A stretch of DNA of 64,000 bases from Rhodanobacter panaciterrae (GTDB lineage: Bacteria > Pseudomonadota > Gammaproteobacteria > Xanthomonadales > Rhodanobacteraceae). The notes under the pieces are model-generated. The model was not told where the DNA came from. It made no database searches and saw nothing but the letters and a program-made list of their open reading frames with translations. Both the position numbers and the translations under genes were made by a program. The stretch covers positions 1,302,001-1,366,000 of the forward strand of contig NZ_BMXT01000001.1 of the NCBI RefSeq assembly GCF_014651895.1. The letters run 5' to 3'. Below are positions 14,723-58,575 of the stretch, in pieces. How positions within the stretch are numbered: the stretch's first letter is position 1; every line of letters begins with the position of its first letter.

Positions 14723-15848
14723 TCACGCATCGATGCGTTTCGAACCCGCTTCGAGGCCGGATTTCAGGCTGGCTTCGATGAACTCGTCGAGGTCGCCATC
14801 CAGCACCTTCTGCGTATCGGTGCGTTCGATGCCGGTGCGCAGATCCTTAATGCGACTCTGGTCGAGCACATAGTTGCGGATCTGGCTGCCCCAGCCGATG
14901 TCGGACTTGGTCGCTTCCAGCGCATCGCGCTCGACGTTGCGCTTCTGCACTTCCAGCTCGTACAGCTTGGCGGCCAGCATCTTCATCGCGGTGTCGCGGT
15001 TCGCGTGCTGGCTGCGGCCGGTCTGGCAGGCCACGACGGTATTGGTCGGGATGTGCGTGATACGCACCGCCGATTCGGTCTTGTTGACGTGCTGGCCACC
15101 GGCACCCGACGAACGGTACACATCGGTGCGCAGGTCGGCCGGATTGATCTCGATGTCGATATCGTCATCGACTTCCGGTGACACGAATACGGAGGTGAAG
15201 CTGGTATGCCGGCGGTTGTCCGAATCGAACGGGCTCTTGCGCACCAGCCGGTGCACGCCGATCTCGGTCTTCAGCCAGCCATAGGCATAGTCGCCTTCGA
15301 CACGGAATGTGGCCGACTTGATGCCAGCCACTTCGCCGCCGCTGACTTCCATCAGCTCGGTCTTCCAGCCACGCGACTCGCACCAGCGCAGGTACATGCG
15401 CAGCAGCATCTCGGCCCAGTCCTGCGCCTCGGTGCCACCGGCACCGGCCTGGATGTCGACGAATGCATTGGTCGCATCCATCTTGCCGGAGAACATGCGC
15501 TGGAACTCCAGCTTGCCTACCTGCGCCTCAAGCTTCGCCAGATCGCTGATCACCGAGTTGGCGGTGTCCTCGTCGTCATCGGCGACAGCCATCTCCAGCA
15601 GGTCGCTGGCGTCGGTCAGACCCGCGGTCAGCGTGTCGATGCCATTGACGATGGTATGCAGGCGGGCGCGCTCGCGCCCCAGCTCCTGCGCGCGTGCCGG
15701 ATCGTCCCAGACGTTCGGGTTCTCCAGCTCGCGACTTACTTCTTCCAGACGTTCGCTTTTTGTAGCGTAGTCAAAGATACCCCCTAAGCGACTCGACACG
15801 GCCCCGGAGGTCCGCGATCTGCGCGAGGATCGGATTGATTTCGATCAT
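14723..15848 (-). CDS. prfB: Peptide chain release factor 2 (programmed +1 frameshift)
   Basis: RF2 ends translation at UGA and UAA. The gene is in two frames: ATG 15848 opens 25 codons ([20 protein letters not shown], then LRGYL) and meets TGA at codon 26 (15773-15771). After a +1 shift it continues with [12 protein letters not shown] to 14723, giving about 374 residues. The stop-recognition SPF ([11 protein letters not shown]) and catalytic GGQ ([12 protein letters not shown]) motifs are present. The shift site has CTT-TGA-C with AGGGGG just before it, as in E. coli, so RF2 level would control its own synthesis. Confidence 0.95.
15770..15785 (-). promoter_or_regulatory. prfB programmed frameshift site
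   Basis: Read on the minus strand, AGGGGG (15785-15780) precedes TAT CTT TGA C. The Shine-Dalgarno-like run three bases before the CTT slip codon and the in-frame TGA at codon 26 are the standard elements. Low RF2 slows termination at this UGA and lets the ribosome slip +1, producing full-length RF2. Confidence 0.93.
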
Positions 15849-15916
15849 GGTTCGGCCAATAAAGTTGCTGGCGTCGCAAAACGCCGTCGATAAAGCGCTA
15901 CAGGATAGCAAACAGG

Positions 15917-17599
15917 TCAAGCCAGTGCCTGACTGTGCACCCCGCGCACCGCCCGTCCCGATGGATCAACTGCACTGGCGAAGGCTGGATCCCATGCTAG
16001 CGCCGCGGGCGAGGAGCAGGCGATCGACTTGCCGCCCGGCACGGTGGCCGCGCAGGCCTCACCCGGAAAATGCTGCTCGAAGATGCGCCGGTAGAAATAC
16101 GCCTCCTTCGTCGCCGGCATGTTGAACGGATAGCGTGCCGCGGCCGCAGCGAATTCGCGATCGCTGATCGCTTGCTCGGCATGTGCTTTCAAGCCGTCGA
16201 TCCAGCCATAGCCGACGCCATCGCTGAACTGTTCCTTCTGCCGCCACAGGATCGAATCCGGCAGCGCGCCTTCGAACGCCTCGCGCAGCACCGCTTTCTC
16301 GATCCGGCCCTGCCCGGCCATCTTGTGCAGCGCATCCAGGCCCATCGCCACATCGATGAACTCCAGATCGAGGAACGGCACGCGCGCCTCCACGCCCCAG
16401 GCCATCATCGCCTTGTTCGCACGCAGGCAGTCGTAGCTGTGCAGCGCGTCCAGCTTGCGCACGGTTTCTTCGTGGAACGCTTCGGCCGATGGCGCCTTGT
16501 GGAAGTACAGATAACCACCGAACAACTCGTCCGAGCCTTCGCCGGACAGCACCATCTTCACTCCCATCGCCTTGATCCGCCGTGCCAGCAGGTACATCGG
16601 CGTGGCGGCGCGGATGGTGGTGACGTCGTAGGTTTCGATGTGCCGGATCACCTCCGGCAGCGCGTCCAGGCCTTCCCAGAACGTGTAGACGAAGCCGTGA
16701 TGCACGGTGCCCAGCGCATCGGCGGCGATCTGCGCGGCGGCCAGATCCGGCGAGCCATCCAGTCCGATCGCGAACGAATGCAACCGCGGCCACCAGGCCT
16801 CAGTGCGATCGCCCTCCTCGATGCGATGCCGCGCGAACTGCGCGGCACATGCAGCCACCAGCGAGGAATCCAGCCCACCAGAAAGCAGCACGCCGTAAGG
16901 GACATCCGTCATCAGCTGCCGATGTACGGCCTGCTCGAACGCCTTGCGCAAAGCCGGCGCCGCGACATCGTGGCCTTGCGTTTGCGCGTAGTCGCGCCAT
17001 GGCCGGTGGTAGTAGCGGCGCAGCTCGCCATCGGCGCTGTCATACACATGCCCGGGCGGAAACGGCGACACGTCCGCGCATACGCCGACCAGCGCCTTCA
17101 TTTCCGAGGCCACGCACAGGCGACCTTGCGCATCGTGTCCCCAGTACAGCGGGCAGACCCCGATCGGGTCGCGGGCGATCACGTAGCGTTGAGCCTCACC
17201 ATCCCACAAGGCAAACGCGAAGATGCCGTTGAGCTTGCCGACAAGATCAGCGAGGGAGCCGTCTGCACCCAGTTCGCGATACAGTGCATTGATCACCTCG
17301 CAATCCGAGCCGGTGGTGAAGTCATAGCTGCTGGCTTCACGCAGCTCGCGGTGGTTGTAGATTTCGCCATTCACCGCCAGCGCGAGTGCACCGTCGCGCG
17401 AACGCAGCGGTTGCGCACCGCTGGCCGGGTCGACGATGGCCAGACGCTCGTGCACCAGGATCACGCCGGCGTCGACGAACACCCCGCTCCAGTCCGGCCC
17501 GCGATGGCGCTGGTGCTGCGACAATTCCAGCGCCTGCCGGCGCAGTGCGGCGAGATCGTCGCCCGGCTGCAGGTCGAACATTCCGAAGATCGAACACAT
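15917..17599 (-). CDS. asnB: Glutamine-hydrolysing asparagine synthetase B
   Basis: Makes asparagine from aspartate, ATP and glutamine. ATG 17599 is chosen instead of the GTG one codon earlier because it places the catalytic cysteine second (MCSIFGMF), as the N-terminal glutaminase needs; GAGGGGAAG upstream is the ribosome site. The glutaminase domain (about residues 1-190, RHRGPDWSG, NGEIYNHRELR) is followed by the synthetase domain with the PP-loop LLSGGLDSSLVAA and VLSGEGSDELFGGY. The 560-residue length is normal. The upstream Asn-rich leader and terminator indicate control by asparagine supply. Confidence 0.96.
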   Translation of the reverse strand: MCSIFGMFDLQPGDDLAALRRQALELSQHQRHRGPDWSGVFVDAGVILVHERLAIVDPASGAQPLRSRDGALALAVNGEIYNHRELREASSYDFTTGSDCEVINALYRELGADGSLADLVGKLNGIFAFALWDGEAQRYVIARDPIGVCPLYWGHDAQGRLCVASEMKALVGVCADVSPFPPGHVYDSADGELRRYYHRPWRDYAQTQGHDVAAPALRKAFEQAVHRQLMTDVPYGVLLSGGLDSSLVAACAAQFARHRIEEGDRTEAWWPRLHSFAIGLDGSPDLAAAQIAADALGTVHHGFVYTFWEGLDALPEVIRHIETYDVTTIRAATPMYLLARRIKAMGVKMVLSGEGSDELFGGYLYFHKAPSAEAFHEETVRKLDALHSYDCLRANKAMMAWGVEARVPFLDLEFIDVAMGLDALHKMAGQGRIEKAVLREAFEGALPDSILWRQKEQFSDGVGYGWIDGLKAHAEQAISDREFAAAAARYPFNMPATKEAYFYRRIFEQHFPGEACAATVPGGKSIACSSPAALAWDPAFASAVDPSGRAVRGVHSQALA

Positions 17600-17643
17600 C
17601 ACACTTCCCCTCGTCGTTGATGAAAAACCGTGGTGCAGAAACG

Positions 17644-17673
17644 AAAAAAGGCCCGCTCTAGGCGGGCCTTTTT
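17644..17673 (-). terminator. asnB leader terminator (attenuator)
   Basis: Reading leftward, AAAAAGGCCCGC (17673-17662) and GCGGGCC (17656-17650) form a strong stem followed by six T (17649-17644), 45 bases before the asnB start. The 5' arm GGCCCGCC (17668-17661) is also exactly complementary to GGCGGGCC (17714-17707) inside the leader ORF, giving a competing antiterminator. It could also stop rightward transcripts, as the stem is flanked by A and T runs on both sides. Confidence 0.88.
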
Positions 17674-17697
17674 CGCGTATGTATTGGAAACTTGAAG

Positions 17698-17820
17698 CTA
17701 CGCGTCGGCCCGCCAGAAGTTGGCGTTATTGTTCGCGCGATTATTGTTGTTGCCGGCCAGGACGAAGCTCCGCGCGAAAGGCGCGGCGAGGTTCTGGAAG
17801 CTAGTGGCAATGGAATGCAT
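17698..17820 (-). CDS. Asparagine-rich leader peptide controlling asnB
   Basis: A 40-codon frame on the minus strand beginning MHSIATSFQNL and carrying the run GNNNNRANNNANF just before its end (FWRADA, stop TAG 17700-17698). Eight Asn codons fall within twelve positions. The next codons TGG CGG GCC contain GGCGGGCC, which can pair with the 5' arm of the terminator at 17644-17673. Stalling at Asn codons would leave that segment free and allow read-through into asnB, whereas a ribosome reaching the stop would cover it. No strong Shine-Dalgarno precedes the ATG, so the exact start is less certain than the function. Confidence 0.82.
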   Translation of the reverse strand: MHSIATSFQNLAAPFARSFVLAGNNNNRANNNANFWRADA

Positions 17821-17895
17821 GGGCCAACTTGAACAGATCAGCGGGACGAAGGCAAGTGCATGGGCACGTGCCGACGGTGCCGATGAGCCAGCGTT

Positions 17896-18270
17896 CTAGG
17901 CTGTCTGCTTTTCAGCTATCCAGTGCGTGGCTTCGGTCAGCTCGGCACCGTGGAACAGGCGAACCTGTGCAGGTACGGCAAAACTAAACGCCGTCGCAGC
18001 GGTGCGCAGCCAACCCACGTCAGTGACCAGGGCGATACGTTCCCAACTGCTGAAATGGCGCATGCCCAGCTTGGCGTCGTCCCACATCGCGCCGGGGTCG
18101 AAGCCCGTGAAATCCTCGGCGGTGACATACAGCAGCCGCAGTTTGCGGTTGAGCGCGAACGCCGCCTCGACATCCGGCACGATGATGTTTTCGTAGTCGG
18201 CAGCGGTGACCTGGCCGTGGGCGCGGAAACCCAGCGTACCGGCAGGCAATCCTTCGATCTGTGCGATCAC
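17896..18270 (-). CDS. SpoIIAA-like (STAS/SEC14-fold) protein
   Basis: A 124-residue soluble protein resembling the SpoIIAA-like family: MIAQIEGLPAGTLGFRAHGQ, VTAADYENIIVPDVEAAF, LRLLYVTAEDFTGFDPGAMW and WERIALVTDVGWL. Members share the fold of anti-sigma factor antagonists and lipid-binding SEC14 domains. No partner anti-sigma gene is nearby, so the role is open. It is upstream of the asnB leader on the same strand. The leader terminator could also end its transcripts. Confidence 0.72.
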   Translation of the reverse strand: MIAQIEGLPAGTLGFRAHGQVTAADYENIIVPDVEAAFALNRKLRLLYVTAEDFTGFDPGAMWDDAKLGMRHFSSWERIALVTDVGWLRTAATAFSFAVPAQVRLFHGAELTEATHWIAEKQTA

Positions 18271-18344
18271 GAGCGTTCTCCATGGGCAGGGTTGTCGCCA
18301 GCTTGGATCAGGCCACGTGAAAAACGTGCAAGTGAAACACCTGG

Positions 18345-18395
18345 AATCCCTTCCCTCACTTGCGGGGGAAGGTGCCGCAGGCGGAAGGGGGCGCT
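18345..18395. repeat. REP-like intergenic hairpin element
   Basis: Between recJ and the SpoIIAA-like gene lies the Pu/Py-rich stretch CCCTTCCCTCACTTGCGGGG followed by GAAGGTGCCGCAGGCGGAAG. CCTTCCC pairs imperfectly with GGGGGAAGG. Similar short palindromes with TTGCGGG loops are frequent between genes in Xanthomonadaceae (general knowledge). A genome-wide copy count would confirm it; only this copy is visible here. Confidence 0.4.
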
Positions 18396-18397
18396 CT

Positions 18398-20110
18398 TCA
18401 GGCGGGTTCGATATGCCGCAACAACAGGCGTGGTGTTTCGCGCCCCTGCCAGTCGTTGATGGTCAACTCGTAGGCGGCGCGCAGGTACGGCGGCGGTGGC
18501 TGGCCCTGATACGCATTGAACATCACTGCGTCATGCACGCTGCCGTCGCGCGGGTCACGCAGCTGTAAGCGCAGGTGCCGTTCGCTCATCACTTTCCAGC
18601 TGGCGCATTCGAACAGGTTGTCGAACAGCGGCTCGGGGAACGCCTGCCCCCACGGCCCGGCATGGCGCAGTTGCCGGGCCAGCGCCAGTGAAGCGGCACC
18701 CGGTGGCAATTCGCCGTCGGTATACAGCACAGCCTGCAACCGCTCGGCGTCGAGCAACTCGCGCGCGATCGCGTCGAATGCTGCCGCGAAACGCGGATAG
18801 TCGCAGGTCTTCAGGCTTAGTCCGGCCGCCATCGCGTGGCCGCCGAAGCGTTCGATCAAACCGGGGTGGCGTGCATCGATCGCTGCCAGCGCATCGCGGA
18901 TATGGAAGCCGGCAATCGAGCGCGCCGAGCCGCGCAGGTTGTCGGTGTCGTCCTCGCTGGCCGGAGCGAACGCGATCACCGGGCGATGCAGGCGATCCTT
19001 CAGCTTGGACGCGACCAGGCCGACGATGCCGGCATGCCATGACGGCTCGTACAGCGCCACGCCGATCGCGTCGATGTCGGTCATGCCGACCACCATCTGC
19101 TCGGCCTCGGCCACCATCGACGCCTGCAGGTCGCGGCGCTCCAGGTTGATCGCGCTGAGCTGCTCGGCATAACGGCGAGCCTGTGCCACGTCGTCGGTGA
19201 GCAGACATTCGACGCCGAGGCGCATGTCTTCCAATCGACCAGCGGCATTCAGACGTGGACCGACGGTGAAGCCGAGATCGCTGGAGCACAGCGTCGCCAC
19301 GCTGCGCTTGCCGGACTCGACCAGCGCGCTGATGCCGACACAGGCCCGGCCGCTGCGGATGCGTTGCAGCCCAGCCTCGACCAGTACGCGGTTGTTGAAA
19401 TCCAGCGGCACCAGGTCGGCCACCGTACCCAGTGCAACCAGGTCGAGCAGCACCGACAGATCCGGCTTTGCACCATTGAACGCACCCTGCTCATGCAAGC
19501 GCGCACGCAGGGCCAGCAGCAGATAGAACATCACGCCCACGCCGGCCAGCATCTTGCTCGGAAACGGATCGCCGAGCAGATTCGGATTGACCATCGCATC
19601 GCACGCCGGCAACTGCTCGCCCGGCAGATGATGGTCGGTCACGATCACGCGGATGCCACGTGCTTTTGCCGCGGCCACGCCGGCCACGCTGGCCACGCCG
19701 TTGTCGACGGTGACAATCAGCTGTGGCGTCGGCTGCAGTGATGCGACCAGCGCAGGACTCAGCCCATAGCCATGCACGAAACGATTGGGGATGGCATAGC
19801 TCACCCGCTTCGCACCAAGCAGGCGCAGGCCACGCACGGCCACCGCGGTGCCGGTGGCGCCGTCACAGTCGTAATCGCCCGCGATCAGGATGCTCCAGTC
19901 GTCACGAATTGCTTCAACCAGCAAATCGACGGCCTGTGTCATGCCACCCAGCAACTGCGGCGACAGCATCCGGGCCAGTCGGTGTTCTACCTCCGCTGGA
20001 GTCAGCACACCGCGGGCAGCGTAGATCTGTTGCAAGACCGGATGCACCGAGTCGGGCCAGCCACTGGGCAAGCCGTTGCTCGCGCGTCGACGCAACTGCA
20101 ACCTGCTCAA
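18398..20110 (-). CDS. recJ: Single-stranded-DNA exonuclease RecJ
   Basis: A 5'-3' ssDNA exonuclease acting in recombination and mismatch repair. The start is placed at TTG 20110, overlapping the rpfE stop as TTGA, which gives 570 residues as is usual; the longer open frame upstream is the rpfE shadow. Motifs include the DHH-type metal site GDYDCDGATGTA, VTVDNG, VTDHHLPG, and the C-terminal DHHA1 region with RSIAGFHIRDAL and RFGGHAMAAGLSL. It is read together with rpfE. Confidence 0.95.
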   Translation of the reverse strand: MSRLQLRRRASNGLPSGWPDSVHPVLQQIYAARGVLTPAEVEHRLARMLSPQLLGGMTQAVDLLVEAIRDDWSILIAGDYDCDGATGTAVAVRGLRLLGAKRVSYAIPNRFVHGYGLSPALVASLQPTPQLIVTVDNGVASVAGVAAAKARGIRVIVTDHHLPGEQLPACDAMVNPNLLGDPFPSKMLAGVGVMFYLLLALRARLHEQGAFNGAKPDLSVLLDLVALGTVADLVPLDFNNRVLVEAGLQRIRSGRACVGISALVESGKRSVATLCSSDLGFTVGPRLNAAGRLEDMRLGVECLLTDDVAQARRYAEQLSAINLERRDLQASMVAEAEQMVVGMTDIDAIGVALYEPSWHAGIVGLVASKLKDRLHRPVIAFAPASEDDTDNLRGSARSIAGFHIRDALAAIDARHPGLIERFGGHAMAAGLSLKTCDYPRFAAAFDAIARELLDAERLQAVLYTDGELPPGAASLALARQLRHAGPWGQAFPEPLFDNLFECASWKVMSERHLRLQLRDPRDGSVHDAVMFNAYQGQPPPPYLRAAYELTINDWQGRETPRLLLRHIEPA

Positions 20111-28643: not shown

Positions 28644-28719
<76 letters not shown>

Positions 28720-28863: not shown

Positions 28864-28939
<76 letters not shown>

Positions 28940-53773: not shown

Positions 53774-53819
53774 GCAGGGCCGTCCCCGCGATGGAAAGTA
53801 CGCGCGGGGTCGTCCCCGC
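53774..53819 (-). ncRNA. Guanidine-II (mini-ykkC) riboswitch
   Basis: Read on the minus strand, two similar 16-base hairpins occur: GCGGGG-ACGA-CCCCGC (53819-53804) and GCGGGG-ACGG-CCCTGC (53789-53774), separated by 14 bases. Twin stems with ACGR tetraloops are the defining feature of this riboswitch class. The second lies 9 bases before the AGGAG ribosome site of gdx, so guanidine binding should expose that site and raise translation. Confidence 0.92.
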
Positions 53820-53836
53820 ACCAGCGCAAGCCGCCG

Positions 53837-58382: not shown

Positions 58383-58575
58383 CGCTTGGTGGGAGAAGCG
58401 GATGGCTCTGCAAAGGGCACTCCGCTGCCGAAGACGCAACGCCCGTAATCGCTCAGGCCCCACACCATCACGCGTAAACACTCTGGAGAGAGCGGTTGAA
58501 TCCGCCGCCGAAGGGGCACGAAGCGCAGCCGCGTTTCCAAACTCTCAGGCAAAAGGACAGAGGGGCGCCCCACGT
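58383..58575 (+). ncRNA. Tandem glycine riboswitch
   Basis: Two glycine aptamers lie head to tail. Aptamer 1: GGGAGAAGCGG (from 58391), CTGCCGAAGACGCAA, and CTCAGGC (58452-58458). Aptamer 2: CTGGAGAGAGCGG (from 58482), CGCCGAAGGGGCA, and CTCTCAGGCAAAAGGACAGA (from 58542). These are the conserved cores of the class. In most bacteria the riboswitch turns on glycine-cleavage genes when glycine is high; gcvP follows 47 bases later. The expression platform may be the hairpins between 58575 and 58620 and was not resolved. Confidence 0.93.

Follow-up and report, generated by a model that had tools for sequence, protein, structure and literature searches.

An asparagine-codon leader and a probable transcription attenuator upstream of asnB in Rhodanobacter panaciterrae and related Lysobacterales

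The stretch of Rhodanobacter panaciterrae DNA analysed here (64,000 nucleotides in all, referred to below as the window) raises the question of what a short open reading frame crowded with asparagine codons is doing immediately upstream of asnB, the gene of a glutamine-hydrolysing asparagine synthase. The classical amino-acid attenuators of proteobacteria are those of the trp, his, leu, ilv, thr and phe leaders; the initial annotation of the present locus had added a further one by analogy, reading it as a classical leader-peptide attenuator of asnB operated by Asn codons, and this reading is supported by conservation among relatives, by covariation and by the geometry of ribosome and RNA in silico. 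The elements on which it is built, namely the ORF, its Asn run, the terminator and the pairing that excludes it, together with the way these are conserved and covary, the ribosome geometry and the promoter pattern, are drawn from the sequence and its comparison (Table 1); as judged from these, asnB is very probably preceded by an asparagine-responsive, ribosome-mediated transcription attenuator.

Table 1. Features of the asnB leader region, all on the minus strand; positions are those of the window.
Feature	Position	Strand	Sequence or description	Details
asnB, glutamine-hydrolysing asparagine synthase	15917..17599	-	regulated gene (proposed)	NF006949 and TIGR01536 over cut-off
Intrinsic terminator	17644..17674	-	GAAAAAGGCCCGC-CTAGA-GCGGGCCTTTTTT	13-bp stem, 5-nt loop, T6
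Helix A1, 3' strand	17661..17668	-	GGCCCGCC; terminator 5' arm core and first loop base
Helix A2, 3' strand (putative)	17674..17679	-	TACGCG; last base shared with foot of terminator stem	MFE folds
Leader peptide ORF asnL	17698..17820	-	MHSIATSFQNLAAPFARSFVLAGNNNNRANNNANFWRADA*	40 codons
Helix A2, 5' strand (putative)	17699..17704	-	CGCGTA; includes two bases of the stop codon	MFE folds
Helix A1, 5' strand	17707..17714	-	GGCGGGCC; inside the ORF, codons W-R-A	pairing counts in 98 leaders
Control codons	17719..17751	-	NNNNRANNNAN	8 Asn codons, 3 of them AAT
Predicted -10	17827..17832	-	TCAAGT	17-nt spacer; TGT at 17835-17833; ends 6 nt before ATG
Predicted -35	17850..17855	-	TTGCCT	TTG position conserved

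The leader ORF and its occurrence upstream of asnB

The ORF, for which the name asnL is proposed here, had been described as having 40 codons on the minus strand with eight Asn codons in twelve positions; coordinates and letters proved right, and the eight codons are in fact packed into 11 consecutive ones. Asn makes up 2.3% of the codons of 39 window genes, and the binomial chance of finding at least eight in 12 codons is 3.5e-11; at least seven occur in five of the 103,011 stop-free 12-codon stretches contained in the six frames of the window. The Asn-rich character of the leader is confirmed and lies far beyond chance. Moreover the leaders make more use of AAT, which is the less frequent Asn codon in window genes: it accounts for 291 of their 627 Asn codons, vs 98 of 399 in the 39 window genes; here, as for the comparison of leader and GatB given below, the Fisher test is reduced to counts because related genomes are not independent.

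The product of asnB matches the asparagine synthase B model NF006949 with 849 bits (cut-off 499) and is the single match to asparagine synthase B in its own genome. Its start is the ATG at 17599, the GTG at 17602 being also possible, and the 44 bases counted between terminator and gene agree with the earlier placing of the start 45 bases past the terminator. Just 5' of a biosynthetic gene there is, as in a leader attenuator, a short ORF in which codons for the product amino acid are clustered.

Conservation of this arrangement was assessed in two sets of genomes, which partly overlap, some genomes being common to both. The first consists of the best 80 of 466 AsnB relatives retrieved by a genome scan (Rhodanobacter, Dyella, Frateuria, Dokdonella and others); three (L029, L039 and L071) were left out as they lie at contig ends, leaving 77 named relatives with enough upstream DNA. 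An Asn-rich ORF and a terminator within 400 nt of asnB are found in 76 of these 77 members of the best 80 of 466, the poorest leader being that of L076, with 3 Asn; in the remaining one, L061, the leader ends 441 nt upstream, displaced by a repeat array, so that a leader is present in 77 of 77. The array occupies positions 2560-3000 of L061, just before asnB and after the terminator, with units containing GGATGGCCGGTA...CAGGAGCA; similar repeats precede asnB in L136.

The second set is a sample of 299 genomes of the order, in 138 of which AsnB is matched at 76% identity or better: 65 in family f1, which is that of the window and, by the named loci, of Rhodanobacter, 70 in f2, presumably Xanthomonadaceae, and 3 in f3. 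All 138 of these orthologues carry the Asn ORF and the terminator, their best 12 leader codons holding from 3 to 8 Asn (at least 5 in 121, just 3 in 5). The Asn-rich ORF is thus conserved upstream of asnB in Lysobacterales; a lack of the Asn run or of its pairing in close relatives, which the initial annotation had named as the outcome that would tell against it, did not occur. Among AsnB genes of the order that are more divergent, at 60-71% identity, the same pipeline found leader and terminator in 1 of 26, namely in L191 of family f8, with the leader MFAIYNTINTTNNRLLRSAGSF; the 25 without it include all five f10 genes as well as L192, L198, L201 and L203 of f1 and L195 and L197 of f2. In the last six AsnB has 64-66% identity, and it is as if in these f1 and f2 genomes gene and upstream region had been replaced together.

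A covariance model of the element was built from 56 rows; in the Rhodanobacter panaciterrae genome it scores 100.4 bits at the asnL locus and 29 bits at the next site, the former value not being independent because the window is itself one of the rows. Homologues outside the order were sought with covariance model R1, to which 261 of the 369 class genomes have a match at E <= 0.01: of the best-match loci inspected, only four from the order, the window included, hold an Asn leader, and the others look like generic GC-rich terminators. Likewise, no leader-like ORF was found in the 23 genomes inspected of the 39 in the class that lie outside the order and have an AsnB match; two of the 23 pass the loosest rule (at least 3 Asn in 12 codons plus a terminator), yet what passes there is in each case the tail of a reading frame some 150 codons long, and arm pairing scores 8.5 in one and 12 in the other.

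Exclusive pairing of terminator and leader

The terminator-like hairpin with six T that had been reported between ORF and asnB is present at 17674-17644, and the exact pairing claimed between a strand inside the ORF and the 5' arm of the terminator is also borne out, the two strands of helix A1 being exact reverse complements. Against this, a simple terminator scan of positions 17500-18400 did not list the asnB leader hairpin; its rules want T residues after the stem, and here the T run lies inside it.

For the pairing statistics 112 leaders were merged to 98 unique ones, L061 being left out of the structural sets. Over these 98 leaders the strand lying at -16 to -10 from the stop-codon end pairs with the terminator 5' arm in 634 of 686 cells (92.4%), while slid-partner controls reach 25-53%. 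The mean pairing of segment 2 with the arm is 22.20 for cognate, 20.83 for non-cognate and 14.65 for shuffled combinations; the cognate mean is reached by none of 2000 permutations, with a narrow margin, the highest permuted value being 21.92. In the 56-row alignment the A1 antiterminator is 89.1% paired and has two-sided changes at three of its eight pairs (GC/UA/CG; GC/AU; CG/UA); neither the covariation score nor the percentage paired is reached by any of 500 shuffles, while the number of pairs with two-sided changes and the count of further pair types are not unusual, being reached by 288 and 459 of 500 shuffles, respectively. The terminator, over the same number of leaders, is paired in 99.4% of cells and has two-sided changes at five of nine pairs. 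The covarying antiterminator and terminator whose conservation across relatives had been put forward as a check are therefore found, two-sided pair changes included: a terminator lies between ORF and gene, and an antiterminator that overlaps the ORF excludes it and covaries. Some variation exists; in part of f2 the antiterminator is longer, GGCCGATGCGGGT coming out as the best run in three of the 18 unique leaders from f2, and an ungapped A1 score below 15 (a threshold chosen here) is seen in 16 of 138 leaders, 12 of which belong to genus g9, where the A1 helix carries a mismatch.

The isolated fold of 17735-17657 contains, in addition to A1, the pairing CGCGUA:UACGCG (17704-17699 with 17679-17674) and has a z-score of -3.79, which points to a second antiterminator helix, A2, that would involve part of the leader stop codon. 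In isolated antiterminator MFE folds all 98 unique leaders have at least five A1 pairs, and 97 of the 98 at least four pairs in the stop region, the A2 figure coming from per-sequence folds, which lie outside the cognate/non-cognate control; counting A2 by alignment columns was dropped, as its register differs between genera. The z-score is below -2 against mononucleotide shuffles in 60 of 98 leaders, so that, taken as a whole, the fold does not stand out in all of them.

The same comparison bears on what is being conserved. The ORF might encode a small Asn-rich peptide acting as a protein or in trans, the terminator being incidental; it is indeed kept in place in 138 of 138 orthologues, and trans-acting attenuator peptides exist, peTrpL being one according to PMC7298713. 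Such a function is nonetheless very improbable, since the peptide varies greatly in sequence, and in length from 16 to 45 codons, everywhere except in the Asn block and the pairing codons, and since one conserved codon is either CGG or TGG, changing Arg to Trp while the RNA pair persists as C-G or U-G, which is what selection on the RNA would produce.

Promoter pattern, ribosome position and proposed mechanism

Upstream of the leader ORFs the alignment has TTGC followed, after about 17 nt, by hexamers resembling TCTAGT or TCAAGT, often preceded by TG and ending 6-7 nt before the ATG. In every one of the 138 order orthologues a TTG lies 34-38 nt 5' of an in-frame ATG or GTG at which the leader begins (at offset 35 in 71, at 36 in 48, at 37 in 13 and at 38 in 6) and is extended to TTGC in 136; in eight other offset bands it occurs in 12 to 60 of 138, with the maximum at 49-53, and at random positions in 228 of 4900. 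Within the offset-35 group (46 rows) T is found at -7 in 41, T at -15 in 36 and G at -14 in 37. A simple promoter scan of 17500-18400 returned, on the other hand, no sigma-70 site; its rules demand A as the second base of the -10 element. With a promoter-like pattern held at an almost constant distance, +1 is likely to be the A of the leader ATG; asnL thus begins at the predicted transcript start, a coincidence which suggests that transcription begins on the ATG or right beside it and would yield a leaderless mRNA. SD-like 4-mers occur within 12 nt of the leader start in 8 of 95 leaders.

A still less likely reading than the peptide, that the hairpin merely terminates an upstream ORF (17896-18270, on the same strand, ending 75 bp before the leader ATG) and that the Asn ORF is fortuitous, is hard to reconcile with the fact that three families have the ORF, the promoter pattern and both antiterminator and terminator together upstream of asnB, and with the covariation of the terminator arm with a strand inside the ORF.

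The geometry was evaluated with the ribosome edge set 13 nt past the first base of the A site. With this footprint, A1 is left free when the A site stands on 5.4 of the 6.4 Asn codons per leader (means); about one per leader, and two of the eight in asnL, are too near the antiterminator strand to spare A1, and therefore stalls on the earlier ones should be those that count. In folds of the emerging RNA the antiterminator can form in 137 of 138 leaders when the ribosome is halted on the first Asn codon, and all 138 give the terminator when it stands on the stop codon, the latter almost directly because the covered RNA is left out. The proposal that a stalled ribosome frees the antiterminator strand and that one at the stop codon covers it is thus reproduced in silico, a ribosome on the control codons sparing the antiterminator and one at the stop masking it. 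In the full-transcript MFE the terminator is favoured in 109 of 138 leaders despite a ribosome stalled at the first Asn codon; since equilibrium favours it, antitermination must be kinetic, taking place before the 3' arm is made.

When the ribosome is omitted altogether, 106 of 138 folds have an early antiterminator, yet 132 of 138 complete transcripts end up in the terminator fold. The trp leader has a strong sequestering 1:2 hairpin; a strong protective hairpin of this kind was not seen in most of the 138 folds computed without ribosome, so that untranslated transcripts might read through. The early antiterminator in 106 of 138 folds could also be taken to mean that the switch answers not to charged Asn-tRNA but to some other factor, such as an RNA-binding protein, a small molecule or the general rate of translation on a leaderless mRNA. 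This is about as improbable as an upstream terminator: what the leader peptide conserves is its Asn run, the regulated gene makes asparagine, and the leader has no Rfam match at the gathering threshold. The possibility of a T-box or of another Rfam element in the leader was discarded on the basis of a cmscan of the whole window at that threshold, which gave 7 matches, none of them a T-box.

For attenuation by charged Asn-tRNA, we infer the start site, the co-transcriptional stalling and the response to asparagine as follows. RNA polymerase would begin on the A of the leader ATG or right beside it, and a ribosome would load on the leaderless mRNA and trail the polymerase. With Asn-tRNA(Asn) charged, the ribosome would pass the Asn codons and reach the stop codon, where it would cover the ORF strands of both A1 and A2, allowing the terminator hairpin to form and transcription to end before asnB. 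With asparagine in short supply, it would stall on the first Asn codons; A1 (GGCGGGCC:GGCCCGCC) and A2 (CGCGUA:UACGCG) would form once the 5' arm of the terminator has emerged and would hold that arm, and the polymerase would read into asnB.

Asparagine supply and relation to known systems

AsnRS is present in the genome of the window (624 bits, cut-off 342.6), in which neither GatB nor AsnA gave a match, and Asn-tRNA should there depend on free asparagine. In the order sample AsnRS is found in 270 of 299 genomes at E <= 1e-100 and GatB is matched in 58, in 54 of them over the cut-off; all 138 genomes with the leader have AsnRS and none has a GatB match, while GatB is present in 6 of the 19 AsnRS genomes of f1-f3 that lie outside the leader set. 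In the leader genomes Asn-tRNA should therefore come from free asparagine alone, and the combination of AsnRS without GatB provides a rationale for Asn codons as reporters of asparagine supply. The pattern of leader, AsnRS and GatB may be partly explained by shared descent. All six f1 genomes with a GatB match (G012, G031, G053, G150, G267 and G289) are without a leader-bearing AsnB orthologue, which suggests an alternation of the free-asparagine and transamidation routes.

With the classical attenuators the asnB leader shares a short ORF carrying a run of codons for the amino acid produced, a terminator and an antiterminator that exclude each other, and an antiterminator strand near the leader stop; it differs from them in being devoted to asparagine, in the absence of a strong 1:2 hairpin from most folds and in its predicted leaderless start. 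T-box riboswitches specific for Asn, known from Firmicutes, also sense Asn-tRNA charging upstream of asparagine genes, as the asnB element would; they do so by direct binding of the uncharged tRNA and have no leader peptide, whereas the asnB element uses one, and the window has no T-box match. A closer parallel for the start is the trpL transcript of Sinorhizobium meliloti, which according to PMC7298713 begins with the leader ATG and may be a leaderless mRNA; the start at the leader ATG (predicted in the present case) and the attenuation of a biosynthetic gene are common to both, whereas trpL is concerned with Trp, belongs to another bacterial class and encodes a 14-aa peptide for which the same source reports a role in trans. 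Mycobacterial polycysteine leaderless sORFs that control downstream genes (Canestrari et al. 2020, as cited in PMC9031893) also combine a leaderless short ORF, again a prediction for asnL, with contiguous codons for one amino acid; they differ in using cysteine and in occurring in Actinobacteria, and the asnB leader has a conserved intrinsic terminator, while PMC1262725, an earlier survey, found no conserved hairpins that could be terminators at the mycobacterial system.

In the open-access literature searched, no title or abstract deals with an Asn leader or an asnB attenuator. Words that start with 'asn' or with the stem of asparagine do not occur in the main text of a survey of premature terminators (PMC2965389), of one on leader genes and reinitiation (PMC4833913) or of the actinobacterial RNA-element survey PMC1262725, and in two open-access papers where 'Asn codons' or 'asparagine codons' stand beside 'leader peptide', the passages concerned belong to other contexts. 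The logic of the system is classical and of textbook kind; what sets it apart are the specificity for Asn, for which the open-access literature searched offered no precedent, the probable leaderless start and the stop-codon helix.

It is likely, though with less assurance than attaches to attenuation itself, that the locus represents an undescribed class of attenuator: specific for Asn, spread through the Lysobacterales, leaderless, provided with an antiterminator at the stop codon, and acting as the main control of the sole synthetic route to Asn-tRNA in lineages devoid of GatCAB. If so, it would sense the Asn-tRNA supply of the whole cell, and asparagine would join the amino acids sensed by leader-peptide attenuation; the predicted leaderless start would offer a natural case of leaderless initiation coupled to attenuation in a gammaproteobacterium. 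Spread as it is over two well-sampled families and a third small one, the element should be annotatable in many genomes.

Other features of the window may be recorded briefly. After asnB lies prfB (RF2), in two minus-strand segments at 15771-15920 and 14723-15799; its start region reads AGGGGGTATCTTTGAC, with TGA at 15773-15771, which we take to be the signature of a programmed +1 frameshift. Over the Rfam gathering scores are a Guanidine-II riboswitch at 53775-53821 (minus strand, 40.8 bits) and a glycine riboswitch aptamer at 58473-58570 (plus strand, 66.3 bits). Finally, two tRNA-Gly(GCC) genes on the minus strand, at 28644-28719 and 28864-28939, lie 144 nt apart, have equal Rfam scores and adjoin a tRNA-Cys gene.
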